From Centroberyx gerrardi (taxonomy: Eukaryota > Chordata > Actinopteri > Beryciformes > Berycidae): a stretch of DNA of 64,000 nucleotides. The translations under genes and the position numbers were made by a program. Every line of letters begins with the position of its first letter. Within the stretch, counting starts at the first letter, position 1. The stretch covers positions 23,592,480-23,656,479 of the forward strand of contig NC_136010.1 in NCBI RefSeq assembly GCF_048128805.1, in the 5' to 3' direction. Under the pieces are notes generated by a model. It ran no database searches. It was not told the DNA's origin and saw only the letters and a list, made by a program, of their open reading frames with translations. Shown here in pieces: positions 7,868 to 61,689 of the stretch.

Positions 7868-9086
7868 TTACATGTGGTGACGTTACTGGTGAGCGCTGCA
7901 GACAGGCCTTGTGGGTAATGAGACTGGACCGACACCAGGTATCTGGACAGAGACGACAGGTTCTGGACCAGCACTGAGTTCACTCCTGTTACCTCCACCT
8001 GGACACAGATGGAACGAAAGAGGAAATATGTGAGTGAAGTGAGAAAAAAGGAAGGAAAACACTACATAATTCGGCAGTAGCATGGTTTGGGACGTTACCT
8101 GCTTGACGTCACTGCCGTGGTTGGTGCTGCAGGTGATCCTGTGGCCGGGGACGTCCACGGCTCCGGGCACCCAGCTCACCCTCAGCATACTGTGGGTGAC
8201 CATCGGGAACTGGACGCTCATCGGGGGTGGGAGCGGGACTGTCGGGAGGGGGAGGGAATTAAGAAGGGAGGAGAGAAAGAGAAGATGGAGGGGAGAAGGA
8301 CAGATTGTTAGGAAGTGTACCGCAGCTATTTGATTCATTACATCACTGCTATGTCTGACCTCAGCCATGCTGTGGATGATTGTAAGGAATTGGGAAAGTT
8401 CTGGAAGCGTAAAAGTGGAGATACAACAGAAAATGACATGTGGAGAATGAGAGGTGCATGTAGGTCCTTTTTTTTTTATCTTCATCCATCTCCTGTGGTG
8501 TTGTTGACAAAACAGTTAATCATCAACATGATCTGGTAAAGAGTCTCTTACATGTGGTGGCGACGGCGGTGACCGGGTCGCTGGGCTCCTCGTCGTAGAG
8601 AGCGTACAAAGTGACAGAGTAATCTGTGGCCGGTATCAGCCCCGCCAGCTCCACCACTGTCTGATCGGCACTGAATTTCTCCTGCAGAGACAGAGGAAAT
8701 AAACGTCAGCCTGGGTTTGTTTAGATTAAGGCTTGTTCAACTTGTTCATCCTGAGATATTGAATGAGAAATTAAGTCTCTCACCACAAGGCTCTGGTTCA
8801 TGAGAACACATTACAGGGACAGGTGGGACAGTGATGATGACTGTCATATTATGTCCTGACCATAAAATTTGAATTCAAGCTATATGTTCCTGACATGTAG
8901 TTAAAAAACACACTTAGAGAGGCAAGGAGGCAGTGAAATCCTTAATTTGACTGCATGTTTAAATCTACATTCACAAGGATTTTCATTTTGATTCTCATAC
9001 TAAACATATTTTTACTATAATTAGTTAAACATACACATACCAAAATTGTGAACCATTGCATACAAGCATTTCACGGCCCTCTCCAG

Positions 9087-9128
<42 letters not shown>

Positions 9129-11848
9129 CTCACCTCCTTGGCATCATCAGGCTCTCCGTGGCTCAGTGCGGAGTACAGGATCATGTACTGCGTAGCACCG
9201 GGTGCTGCACCCCAGCTCACCCGCAGACTGCTGGGAGAGGAGGGAGTCACCTCCAGGTTGGCAGGCATGGCCAGGGGCACTGAGGAAGGGAGGGAGGGAG
9301 GGGGAGGAGGATGGGGAGAGAAAGGAAATGACAGGAGAGATGAGGGGATGGATGAAGTGCAGTCTTGTGTCTTAAAGAAGCGGGTGATAATACAGGATGT
9401 CAGAAAAGTCTAGAACATAACATGTAGGACTAATGTAGCTGTCTGTCTTACAGGTGGTGACGGTTCCTCTGAGCGCCAGGCCCACGTTGTCTTCATACAC
9501 AGGGAAGATGGACACGTGGTACAGAGTCTGAGAGGAGAGGCCTCGGAGCAGCACACTGGACTCTGACCCATTCACCACTACCTAGACACACCGACACATA
9601 CAGTCAGGCGGACAAACACATACAGTCAGGCGGACAAACACACACACTCACTAACACAATCACACACCGACACTGTGCACTGTCTACTTTGCCTGTCGCT
9701 GATGTCAGGTGAAAACCACGTGTTTCCTGACACAATTTACTTAAATTTATTGGCTCATTAAAGATAGTGAAGCATTTTTACACATCAATATATCATTGTC
9801 AAATTAATTGTGATCACTTGGTATAATGACCATAAACAAATGAGACCATGGTCGAGACTATCAGTAGTCTCACTAGTCTGATTGATGTTAAAATGCTACA
9901 AGTCACACATTTAATAGATACACTGCTAAAATTGTCTGTTTGCAAGTGAGGTAGAGTTGCGTGTCTGACCTCCTGTGGACTCTGACCCTCGGCGCTGTGG
10001 AAAACCACTCTGTACTGTTGGACGGGCCGGGCTGGACTCACAGGACCGGTCCAGTGGAGCCTCACCTCTCTGGAGCCCAGCTCAGAGAAGCGGAGGTCGG
10101 TGGGACTGGGGTAGGACAAGGCTGGATCCACTGTGGGCCCAGGCTCCATTCCTGCAGACACAGCAAGACCGGTTCATAACAATATTTACAGGTTGCTGTT
10201 ATTGTGAGCTTGAAGTGAAGACTTCTGTCCCTAAAATGAGATATTCATCATCATCTGTCTAATTGAAATATTGACTCATGACGGATCTATCTATCTATCC
10301 ATCTACTGTATCTCACACTCTTTTTTTGAAGAATGGAAGAATGATATAACATTAAGTATGTGTTGGTAGCGCTGGAGTACATAATGTACATAATGAGTGT
10401 ACATAATTAGAGTAGGAAACAAAAGAAAGAAAAGTGTTCTTGTTCCTGTTTTGTTAAAGATGCAATGAATTTGTGTCACAGAGGCTACAGCTAACTCCAC
10501 TAGAGAGCAGACCTGAGTCAAATCATATCTGTAAACACTTTTCAAAGGTTGTTTTAACCTATTTATGTCTCAGATGGGTAGTATTTGCCTTACAGGACAA
10601 GCATTTGAATGTCAAATCAATATAATTTCCAGTAACTGACAACCTACCTGACTCAACCTGAACTGTCCTGACATGGTACCTCCCAACCCTCTGGTACTCC
10701 ATGCAGGTTAAAACAAACAGCGTCACATGGAAATACCAGGTCAGCTTCTGAGTCAGAGTTTATCACTCACCCGCTTATTCATTCAGTGAAAGGCACACAC
10801 TGTCCTAAACATATAAATTCAAAATTCAGAATTCATCTCACGTTTGGTGATGCCGCGGTCCTCTATCCTGCCACAGAGGATGTGCACCAGTCGCGCCACC
10901 AGTTTGCTGAGCAGAGGGAAGTCGTTGACGTTGTAGACGTTCAGCTCCAGCGGCTCGGACGCCACCTGCCTCAACTCGGCTTCGTCAGCATTCTTCACAC
11001 CTGAATAACAAACACAAAAATAATAAAAGAAACCCTCAGGGAGAAGCCCAGTCAAAGCACACACACAACAGCATTCAGAGATTAGAAGGAACATGCCTTA
11101 CTGCAGCTAACAATGAAAACACAGCAGGGCTAAGAACTCATAAGATTCTCAATTCCCAACTGTCAAAATAAATTGAAGAAACAAAACAAGAACAGATTGT
11201 GTACAGTCCCATAGCGCATAGACAGAAATGATGTTAAGTTTAACTATGAAGTTAAGATTCATAGTTAAAGTCAAATTTTCACAATAATAGAGCTTTCACT
11301 TCATTATATTAATTAGATATTGCCCAATACAGAGCATACATCATTTGTATATATTTATTTTCTCAAGTGCTGTAAACTGTGATGATGTTTGATGGCGCAC
11401 AGACATACAGTAGATGAGTGAAGTGTCTCACCGCTGGGTGACTGACCAATAGCACCATGTTGTGACAGCAGGGGTTAAAGATCTCACCCCATGCTCTACT
11501 GTCACTCCTGGCACCCCACTGTTTCCAGTCTTGCTATTCAGCAATAATGAGGAAATACCTGAGACTTGAAGCCTGAGAAAAAGCTGAAAGTAACAGTCAC
11601 CCTTTCCACCACCTCTTCCTCTCTCTGTCTTGTCTACCTGTGTAGAATATCAACCTTTAATGCGAATGATGTCTCACCTACAGCGATGATCTCCACGCCA
11701 GCATTCTTCAGCCGGTCGGCTGCGGCAATGGCATCGTCCTGAGACTTCCCATCAGTCAACAGGACCAGGAAGAAAGGCGTGTCCGACCTGGCGCCTGACT
11801 CCGCCCTCATGTTCTCCTCCATGACGTGGAGCAGCGCCTGGCCTGGGA

Positions 11849-57833: not shown

Positions 57834-57841
57834 GTGCATTG

Positions 57842-58559
57842 GGTAACTCTTTATAATAACTTTCATTTATAAGCCATTCACAAGCAGTTAGTTAATGATG
57901 AATTAAACATTAATTACTTATTACTTATTATATTATAGATGTTAGAATCTGATTAGTCCATCATTAGTATTCATATTAGTTCAACATTTATATCTGAATT
58001 ATAAGCAAGGAATAAAAATATTTTATAAGTCATTTGTAAAACATTAGCTGATGCTGGTAAAATTCACTTAGACCTATAAAAACTTACATAAGTTGTAGTG
58101 TTAACTGATTATTTACTCATGTTTTATAAATGATTTGTTACTATGTTGTAAATAAGCTATAAATATATGAATAAATACTTAGCTACTCATTTATAAACTT
58201 GTTGCAACACCTAATCTGAAGTAGCAACTTATTCCAGTCTATTAAGGATTAATAAGACATCTGTTAATACCAGAATGGCCTAGAAATGAGAGAAACAATG
58301 CAGTGACAGCAATGACAATTTATTGTCCACTTTTGTTTACAAATTTCAACATGACAACATGGCATTCAACAATTCACATACACACCTCTTTGTGAACATG
58401 GAGCTTGCCCTGGAGGCAAACGCATTTCTTAACATTGTAAAATATTGTGCCCATGCACAAACATACACACTGCTTAAAGAACATGAAGCTTCTGTAGTGG
58501 TATTTCTTTGTTAGGAAGAACTGAACCAAATCCAACAAATGTGGGCATGGCATGGTAAA
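57842..58559 (+). repeat. Left terminal inverted repeat of the CCDC106-like element
   Basis: Outer part is A/T-rich with many copies of ATTTATAA-like motifs. Inner part (from about 58290) is 3'-UTR-like sequence with a minus-strand AATAAA at 58319-58324. It pairs with 60791-61508. Confidence 0.85.
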
Positions 58560-58671
58560 CATTGTTATAAAAACATGGTTATCTATGCATCAATAACCAT
58601 TACCAACAATACTATGGCAAGAACACAGGACTCTACAGAATGTATGTCCTAATCCCTATCTGTACAGTTTC

Positions 58672-58960
58672 AGGAACAATGCAGTGACAGCAATGACAAT
58701 TTATTGTCCACTTTTGTTTAACAAATTCAACATGGCAACATGGCATTCAACAATGACATTTTAAAACATTGTTAAAAAATTGTACTTTTGCATATACTGT
58801 ACATACAGTACACCCCTCTTTGTGAACAGGGAGGCAAATGCATCTCTTAACATTGTAATTGTGTGCCTATGCACAAACATACTTTACATACACACCTCTT
58901 TATTATTGTGGGGCCTGCCCAAGAGGCTTATGCAGCACAACAAGCAAACTGCCTAACATG
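58672..58960 (-). repeat. Tandem degenerate copies of the CCDC106-like 3' UTR
   Basis: The block 58295-58470 inside the left arm recurs at about 58676-58880 (offset about 381 bp) and in part again at about 58880-58960. Shared landmarks are GCAGTGACAGCAATGACAAT, a minus-strand AATAAA (58700-58705) and CCTCTTTGTGAACA. The inner copies are clearly more diverged than the two arms are from each other. Confidence 0.7.
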
Positions 58961-58999
58961 TAACATGTTTAACACTCGAGCACCACTTAACATAATTAG

Positions 59000-59998
59000 T
59001 TATTTTCTCATTGTAATCGGCAGAAGTTTAACTTTGGCTTTCATATCATCTACTTTGGCCTGCAGTTGAGCATCTTTTGTTATGACATCGGCACATTGCT
59101 TTGCAATAGCCAGCAGCTTTTTCTCTTTGCGGTGAATTTGTAAGAGCTCTCTGTATTTTTCTGGTGACACAATCGCAAGTTCTGCTATGGGAGCTGTTGT
59201 CGCGACAGTATTTCTGTCAACACCTACAGCCTTGTATGCTGCTCCAAGGTTCTTGGTCCTCTTGTATTCTCGAAGAATGGCATTATATCTTTGTAACACC
59301 TGGTCAGGATGTTGCGCTACAATTGGAATAGAAATGAATTGAAATGAACCATGTTGCTAACCCTCCCAAAATAAAGACCCATTCAACATTTAGAAGCTTT
59401 TATCATTTACCTCTTTGTCCAAATGTACGTTTCCGCTCTCTCTTCGCTTTTTTCCCCTTCTTTCCTATTGTCTTCTTTCGCTTTTTCTTCCCCTTCTTCA
59501 ATTTCTTCCTCAGACGAGGAGGAGGAGGAGGAGGTTGAGGAAGAACGAGAAGATGAGGATGAAGAGCTTGACTGATGAGTCTGTGGTGCTGCCAAGGTCC
59601 ATCAGCTTGTCTTCGTCCTCGCCCTCTTTTTTCTTACCAGAAGCTAATTCCCAGCAAAAATAAAATAAAAATACAAAGATAAGATATGTGCAAGATGTTG
59701 GTAGTAAGTGTAGACAGTTTCTCTACTTTGCAAGCTAATTTCCCTCTAATATATTTACAGTATGTATATGTATATATACAAAAAATAGTATATGTGTGGC
59801 CAAATATCATCCCAGGATACATAAATAAGCAACTTTTTCCAATGTGGCACTTACTCTCAGCCAACTGCTTCACAAGGGAGTCCCTCTCTTTGGTTAGCTC
59901 AACTATCTTCTCCGCTAGTTTAGCCTCTCTGTGCTCTGACGCGACCAGTTTTGTCTTGTAATTCTTAGCAGAAAGTTGGGCTGTAGGACATGCCACAC
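59000..59998 (-). pseudogene. CCDC106-like coiled-coil/HTH gene, frame-disrupted
   Basis: Three exons on the minus strand. Exon 59998-59855 encodes a coiled coil (AEKIVELTKERDSLVKQLAE). Exon 59643-59411 holds an acidic start (GKKKEGEDEDKLMDLG), a Ser-rich run and a Lys/Arg-rich nuclear-type region. Exon 59316-59000 encodes the conserved block VLQRYNAILREYKRTKNLG, YKAVGVDRNTVATTAPIAEL and a helical tail ending LPITMRK. The order matches CCDC106-like proteins of fish, and splice sites join exon 1 to 2 in frame. In exon 2, however, the acidic, Ser-rich and basic parts lie in three different frames, and the entry frame stops at 59512-59510. Only the third frame joins exon 3. It is therefore probably a pseudogene, unless a different splice pattern is used. 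Upstream coding exons were not found. Confidence 0.75.
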
Positions 59999-60079
59999 CT
60001 GTAATGATACCAATACAGTGATATGATTACCATGCTACCGTACTACGGAGCCCCTAAAATCCCGAAAGGTGATATTTTT

Positions 60080-60168
60080 TTTATCTTGTGCGCACAACTT
60101 AATTATCTTGTGGGAACAAGTTATTATCTTGTGCGCACAAGATAATTAACTTGTGCGCACAAGATAAC
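60080..60168. repeat. Array of four palindromic TTATCTTGTGC/GCACAAGATAA units
   Basis: Four units with roughly 22-bp spacing. The third (60123-60146) is a perfect 24-bp palindrome centred on TGTGCGCACA; the others carry a few changes. Such dyads can bind a homodimeric factor or extrude as cruciforms. Confidence 0.75.
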
Positions 60169-60628
60169 AACATGAAACAGCTCGACGAGCATATAAGACT
60201 GGTTAGCCATGGGTAGCCAGCAAGTGTTAGCTAGATGTATAATTTATGTCTGGCTACATATTGCATGGTACATGGTGGTTAACATTATAATATATCAAGC
60301 TAGCGATGCTAACAAGCTAGTGACGCTAGCAAGCTGTCTAGGCTGGTGCATAGCTAGTGGTTAGCAAGTTAGCTCGTCAGTTGGGTAGCTATGGGAAGAG
60401 GGAGATCGGGAGCTTGAACACATTTTATGTTCATGATAACCTTATCAAGAGATGTCTGACCATCTAATTCTTTGCACTCCCTAACTTAGTTGTTGCTCAG
60501 TTGATGAGATCCACTTAAAACGAATAGTGGCTAGCTTCCTAGTAGTTATGCTCTGTTATGCTGTATCACGATGTTACTTTAGGGGCATTCCCAACTGATT
60601 TATGCTCGTCGAGCTGTTTCATGTTGTT
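60166..60628. repeat. Nested 28-bp inverted repeat
   Basis: 60166-60193 and 60601-60628 are perfect reverse complements (core GAAACAGCTCGACGAGC, itself containing a small dyad). They enclose about 407 bp rich in GCTAGC-like motifs, which may be a small element nested inside the larger one. Confidence 0.7.
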
Positions 60629-60634
60629 AACTAT

Positions 60635-60708
60635 CCAAGCCAACGTGTAGCACTAATTAATAGCTAGTGTTACAAGTAGCTATTAATTAGTGCTACAAGT
60701 TGGCTTGG
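60635..60708. repeat. Strong stem-loop, 32-bp stem and 10-nt loop
   Basis: 60635-60666 pairs with 60677-60708 with one mismatch (CCAAGCCAAC...AATAGCTA). The loop is GTGTTACAAG. It lies just inside the right arm of the element. Confidence 0.75.
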
Positions 60709-60790
60709 CTGGTTGGCTTGGCTGACTCACTTCTTTAGCCACCGGGCTACATCGATTGTTTTTATAGTCCAGAAAGGTGATTTTTTTTTT

Positions 60791-61508
60791 TTTACCATGC
60801 CATGCCCACATTTGTTGGATTTGGTTCAGTTCTTCCTAACAAAGAAATACCACTACAGAAGCTTCATGTTCTTTAAGCAGTGTGTATGTTTGTGCATGGG
60901 CACAATATTTTACAATGTTAAGAAATGCATTTGCCTCCAGGGCAAGCTCCATGTTCACAAAGAGGTGTGTATGTGAATTGTTGAATGCCATGTTGTCATG
61001 TTGAAATTTGTAAACAAAAGTGGACAATAAATTGTCATTGCTGTCACTGCATTGTTTCTCTCATTTCTAGGCCATTCTGGTATTAACAGATGTCTTATTA
61101 ATCCTTAATAGACTGGAATAAGTTGCTACTTCAGATTAGGTGCTGCAACAAGTTTATAAATGAGTAGCTAAGTATTTATTCATATATTTATAGCTTATTT
61201 ACAACATAGTAACAAATCATTTATAAAACATGAGTAAATAATCAGTTAACACTACAACTTATGTAAGTTTTTATAGGTCTAAGTGAATTTTACCAGCATC
61301 AGCTAATGTTTTACAAATGACTTATAAAATATTTTTATTCCTTGCTTATAATTCAGATATAAATGTTGAACTAATATGAGTACTAATGATGGACTAATCA
61401 GATTCTAACATCTATAATATAATAAGTAATAAGTAATTAATGTTTAATTCATCATTAACTAACTGCTTGTGAATGGCTTATAATTGAAAGTTATTATAAA
61501 GTATTACC
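60791..61508 (-). repeat. Right terminal inverted repeat of the CCDC106-like element
   Basis: Reverse complement of the left arm. It carries an AATAAA on the plus strand at 61026-61031, so each arm offers an outward-reading polyadenylation signal. Confidence 0.85.
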
Positions 61509-61689
61509 GTGCATGGGTGTATTAAACATATTTTCCAGTGTCCTGTCTTTTTACAACACAGCATTTTGATTAGTTCTATATTAGGCTGACTGTGCATTGT
61601 TGTTAGCCCCATAACGTAATGGTAATATTAAATCCCACCCCCACTAATGGATTTAGAAGGATAGGCTACAAATGTCACAGCAAAAATAT

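Follow-up and report, generated by a model that had tools for sequence, protein, structure and literature searches.

What kind of mobile element carries long terminal inverted repeats (TIRs) and, between them, a gene resembling CCDC106 and no transposase? The question is raised by an element on C14 of the fish Centroberyx gerrardi, within a 64,000-nucleotide stretch (NC_136010.1, positions 23,592,480 to 23,656,479, forward strand) that we call the window. An initial annotation had proposed that the CCDC106-like protein may be cargo or an accessory protein of an unknown long-TIR family. Having searched the whole genome (779 Mb; 778.9 Mb before rounding), we arrive, at a probability of roughly 87%, at a reading in which the window element is a long-TIR transposon of the Merlin superfamily (IS1595/IS1016 type), internally deleted for the transposase and for the start exon of its second gene, and in which the family has a divergent two-gene plan and works by the helper mechanism proposed below. 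In this genome the CCDC106-like gene is a companion gene of Merlins with long TIRs. Such elements do carry it, as proposed, but it is better described as an accessory gene belonging to a known superfamily than as the cargo of an unknown superfamily, because the elements on C2 and C16 carry Merlin exons divergent from the CCDC106-like gene.

The arms of the window element are 718 nt each, in inverted orientation, with 6 mismatches (99.2% identity) and a spacing of 2,231 nt, which confirms their earlier description. They are flanked by an 8-bp target-site duplication (TSD) matching at seven positions; seven or eight matches at fixed positions would arise by chance about 4 times in 10,000 (25/65536, our own arithmetic). 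The termini read GGTAAC... and GGTAAT..., with the 5′-GG at which Merlin TIRs start. Because the arms are only 0.84% apart, the insertion is young, unless gene conversion has evened them. A genome search with the arm, in which all 35 candidates were scored, gave one near copy elsewhere, on C2 (96–97%), so the arms are not restricted to the window; matches at the remaining loci were short and mostly of 66–76%. A pair of full-length arms was found at a single place in the genome, and the deleted form of the element was likewise seen once. The interior was found solely in the window and on C2 (best 40 of 73 candidates), aside from a palindromic repeat of ~130 bp, TTATCTTGTGCGCACAAGATAA, which is nested in both copies. 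The C2 copy, the flanking repeat and related elements with the same end motif bear out the view of the locus as a long-TIR mobile element.

Between the arms lie three remnants of a CCDC106-like gene, with exon ends set by eye and plausible splice sites (Table 1). The conserved block of exon 3 matches Pfam CCDC106 (PF15794) at 112.5 bits (cut-off 30.2; 3.5e-32). The three-exon gene of the initial annotation holds up in its coiled-coil, basic and conserved blocks and in this match, but the gene is incomplete: exon 2 is broken and out of frame with exon 3, the start exon of the C2 type has no match anywhere in the element, and no complete open CCDC106 gene is left in it. With its start exon absent and exon 2 frame-broken, the gene is dead. 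No Merlin exon was found in the window by tblastn.

The C2 copy resembles the window element at 96–97% in the arm and at ~93% in the body, over element positions 235–2312. Beyond the point at which the homology ends, it continues with the CCDC106-like start exon, an intergenic region and then a Merlin transposase gene, and for this reason the window copy is a deletion derivative without these three parts. On C2 the CCDC106-like exons (minus strand) and the Merlin exons (plus strand) are divergently transcribed, and the Merlin gene was also found independently by profile (PF12762, 50.4 bits, cut-off 27). The CCDC106-like gene is broken here too, by different lesions that include two stops in exon 3. 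The left arm of this copy is interrupted by another element, which puts its left end 23 kb off; this 23.3-kb insertion (C2:5132831-5156166; L010:4831 to L009:5166) has ends AGGCCTTTGCACAC and a TTA-like TSD, and we take it to be Harbinger-like. A second CCDC106-like gene (C2:5168533-5170786, L030) is separated by ~10 kb from the C2 Merlin exons and lies on the strand opposite to that of the first.

The same divergent plan is present on C16, where inverted arms enclose a CCDC106-like gene (minus strand) and Merlin exons (plus strand). The left end, GGTAACACTTTACAATAAGGT, lies at C16:3773644, and the right end repeats it with 4 mismatches at a distance of 18.5 kb; the CCDC106-like protein is ~35% identical to that of the window. 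The stretch also contains an additional 207-aa frame. The divergent pair is thus seen in two elements, on C2 without a right arm and on C16 with both arms. The search for autonomous relatives with a transposase, recommended in the initial annotation, turned up the Merlin exons of these two elements, and the lack of a transposase beside the CCDC106-like gene, true of the window copy, reflects a deletion and not the family plan.

Like the C16 locus, further CCDC106-like loci, on C5, C7 and C4, have ends of the same kind, a point that the initial annotation had proposed to check. The C5 locus, L027, holds one CCDC106-like exon within perfect 51-bp TIRs and shares its ends, at 94–98%, with L041 on C22, which has a perfect 8-bp TSD, ATCAGGCA, and Merlin exons by tblastn (longest frame below the Pfam cut-off, 18.2 vs 27 bits). 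Two dispersed CCDC106-like copies, at C7:3.62 Mb and C4:33.69 Mb, are 93% alike, and their right end, GGTAACACTTTATAATAACC, matches at 94% over ~700 bp a locus, L051, with Merlin exons and its own inverted arms at 97%; the left ends of both copies and of L051 were not found. At L040 (C7:9.33 Mb), a Merlin exon and a CCDC106-like exon lie ~190 bp apart, with an end of the C16 kind ~850 bp further on. This was first read as the end of an unrelated short repeat, a reading dropped because an almost identical end is present in the C16 element, and it is probably that element's own. The ends GGTAACACTTTACAATAAGG..., at L040:3695-3712 and C16:3773644, are common to the C16 two-gene element and the short repeat L015:6145, which hints at a Merlin origin of some of the short repeats of fish. 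The gene itself, or ends in common with elements that carry it, was seen in four or five families, the count depending on whether C16 and L040, with their similar ends, are one.

A Merlin protein search gave nine matches at eight loci; among the six loci read, three have a CCDC106-like gene inside or adjoining (C2, C16 and L040), two have ends in common with CCDC106-like carriers (L041 and L051) and one, L050, has none in the stretch read. By profile, in the whole genome, PF12762 had four matches and PF15794 had 20 matches at 15 loci, seven of which are tied to such elements. Two of the four PF12762 loci lie near CCDC106-domain loci (expected 0.0005), a count independent of motif choice, with the 3-kb limit of nearness set afterwards. 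The end motif GGTAAYACTTTATAATAACT occurs with at most one mismatch at 42 sites in the genome, against one for the reversed control. Six of these sites are at four CCDC106-like loci, where 0.008 would be expected within 5 kb; since the six were already known when the motif was selected, the figure shows its rarity and is not an independent test.

Several observations weigh against this interpretation. No copy was seen with both genes whole. The C2 transposase reading is gapped at the aspartate of its relatives that we take for the second catalytic one, the readings at L049 and L051 carry a stop, that at L041 has a gap, that at L050 is partial, and L040 shows the last Merlin exon only. At L040, moreover, the two exons are on the same strand and in an order that differs from the divergent plan. 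The C2 right arm was not found in the 6.6 kb read past the last Merlin exon. As for TSDs, that of the window (GTGCATTG/GTGCATGG) has one mismatch in 8 bp, that of L027 is 6 bp long instead of 8, and no clear one was seen at the C16 element. No CCDC106-like exon was seen at L041 or L051, or in the 4.8 kb read at L050 (C7:3.746 Mb). Eight of the 15 CCDC106-domain loci are unlinked to such elements, in flanks of ~1.5–2.8 kb read on either side, and two weak Merlin matches (C16:9036694 and C2:25284901) fall outside the six loci read.

A rival reading is repeated capture, by which Merlins acquired CCDC106 genes of the host, or pieces of them, by chance and carry them as passengers without a role in transposition. 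Host-looking genes are there to be captured: the loci on C12 (12424815), C22 and C19 are taken for host CCDC106 genes because several exons match. L027 yielded one exon only, and tree support for a single transposon clade is weak (57/88). Capture would nevertheless have had to yield one and the same divergent arrangement twice, in elements with CCDC106-like proteins of ~35% identity, and to recur among the four or five families; nor was a close parental gene found, exon 3 having matches of at most 50% apart from the C2 copy. We consider repeated capture improbable.

The 8-bp TSD would also suit a hAT transposon with the CCDC106-like gene as its cargo, and at one locus with similar ends (~70% over 160 bp), L032, there is a hAT transposase frame with the domains DUF4371 and Dimer_Tnp_hAT. 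That hAT is a nested insertion whose site is empty in the siblings L011 and L013, for which reason hAT was rejected as the parent superfamily, and Merlin exons are present in the near copy on C2, of which no hAT search was made; the proposal is largely refuted and has very little probability left. An immobile local inverted duplication, with which the single full-length arm pair would agree, has virtually none, given a near copy on another chromosome, the flanking 8-bp repeat and related elements that share the end motif, one of which has a perfect TSD. The Zisupton/KDZ transposase profile PF18758 had no matches in the genome, and no control genome matched either.

The long-TIR family of L011, L012, L013 and L032 has ends related to the window arms (66–75% over the first ~212 bp), and no Merlin exon was found in the four loci. 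L012:3993-6638 and its relatives form a separate family with TIRs of ~640 bp and GGTAACACTTTAAAATAAT ends (68 matches; best 40 of 101 candidates), whose transposase was not found. Its short copy L020 has a perfect 8-bp TSD, GTGGCATG. The hAT nested in the long-TIR element at L032:3046-7304 (C1:35512950-35522150) has an open frame of 638 aa.

The Merlin reading agrees with what the available parts of PMC8101967 give as hallmarks of the superfamily, namely 5′-GG ends, TSDs of 8–9 bp and a DDE_Tnp_IS1595 transposase. The elements here have GG-ended TIRs and 8-bp TSDs (one mismatch in the window, perfect at L041), and the C2 and sibling copies encode the transposase. They differ in the length of the window arms, 718 bp against TIRs of 24–462 bp in that partially available source, and in their second, divergently transcribed gene. 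The one extra frame mentioned for Merlins, in a Symbiodinium family, overlaps the transposase, lacks known similarity and, as far as those parts of PMC8101967 go, was judged by its authors to be due to chance. Among the matches listed, no literature joined CCDC106 with Merlin or treated CCDC106 as transposon-borne, and nothing usable concerned an accessory protein of Merlin transposons in teleosts; searches on long TIRs in fish and on the end sequence itself gave no match. In viral contigs, 52 stretches matched a Merlin exon, none of them confirmed.

PIF/Harbinger elements have a 3-bp TSD, TWA, and the 8-bp repeat of the window element is not of this type. The transposase and ends differ as well, and the second protein here is CCDC106-like and not Myb/SANT. 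What the two systems would have in common, on the portions of PMC9179366 at hand, is that a single element combines a DDE transposase with a small DNA-binding protein of the helix-turn-helix type; the Harbinger Myb-like protein is described there as binding the TIRs and entering the nucleus with the transposase. The CCDC106-like genes have the look of a helper gene that belongs to the transposon itself, and by this analogy their product would be a DNA-binding helper. The family plan, pieced together from several copies, would run from a long TIR through the CCDC106-like gene (leftward), a shared intergenic region and the Merlin transposase gene (rightward) to the second long TIR. The transposase would make cuts staggered by 8 bp at the GG-ended TIRs. 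The CCDC106-like protein, with its coiled coil, basic stretch and helix-turn-helix, may dimerise, bind repeated sites in the long arms and help the transposase to reach the ends or enter the nucleus. An arm stretch of 83 nt that recurs inside the element is a candidate protein-binding repeat and could be its site. Deleted copies such as that of the window would be moved in trans.

The conserved block, earlier described as resembling a helix-turn-helix, was indeed modelled as such a domain. The best structural neighbours of the model are plant LEAFY DNA-binding domains, at non-significant Foldseek E values of 1.0–5.0. The LEAFY domain was not listed for a model of a host-like CCDC106, no LEAFY sequence matched the block up to E 10, the available part of PMC8287900, on LEAFY, holds nothing on a transposon origin, and no literature among the matches listed joined the LEAFY domain with CCDC106. 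The copies here share with the CCDC106 family (PF15794) the coil, the basic stretch and the conserved C-terminal domain; they differ in being transposon-borne and diverged (26–50% to the three host-like genes), the window copy being dead. Vertebrate CCDC106 is described as a p53-interacting protein. Tentatively, and with more doubt than confidence, we suggest that the CCDC106-like gene might be an ancient second gene of animal Merlins with a LEAFY-like DNA-binding domain, and the host CCDC106 of vertebrates, a p53 regulator, a domesticated copy.

Table 1. Features of the window element and of related loci (window coordinates unless a locus or C number is given).
Feature	Position	Strand	Remark
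Left TSD, GTGCATTG	57834..57841	.	7/8 match to 61509-61516
Left TIR, starts GGTAACTCTTTATAATAACTTTC	57842..58559	+	near copy on C2
83-nt repeat of arm sequence 58291-58373	58672..58754	+	94%; inside element
CCDC106-like exon 3	59000..59316	-	conserved helix-turn-helix block; open
CCDC106-like exon 2	59411..59643	-	serine/acidic, then basic; frame-broken
CCDC106-like coiled-coil exon	59855..59998	-	start-codon exon missing from window copy
Nested ~130-bp palindromic repeat, TTATCTTGTGCGCACAAGATAA	60043..60173	.	dozens of copies in genome
Deletion junction	60588..60601	.	window/C2 homology ends at 60588 = L009:7826
Right TIR	60791..61508	-	
Right TSD, GTGCATGG	61509..61516	.	
C2 CCDC106-like ATG exon	L009:7880-7971	-	no counterpart in window
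C2 Merlin transposase exons	L009:8149-8328, 8544-8752, 8951-9277	+	
C16 inverted arms	C16:3773699-3774105 / 3791665-3792074		410 bp, 96%
CCDC106-domain loci linked to such elements	C14 window, C2:5157093, C5:8755657, C7:3623470, C4:33696126, C16:3775251, C7:9334992		
CCDC106-domain loci unlinked	C12:12424815, C22:6251820, C19:22915491, C2:5170493, C12:31277375, C5:4129434, C17:27320017, C14:29800864		first three taken for host genes

Merlin, as described in the available parts of PMC8101967, consists of a transposase gene without a companion; a second, DNA-binding gene would give it a two-protein plan like that of Harbinger. It could also account for the multiple copies of CCDC106-like genes in fish, a multiplicity stated in the initial annotation, and in practice transposon genes may be annotated as host genes in fish. 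With it, a transposon origin of the p53-linked CCDC106 becomes directly testable.
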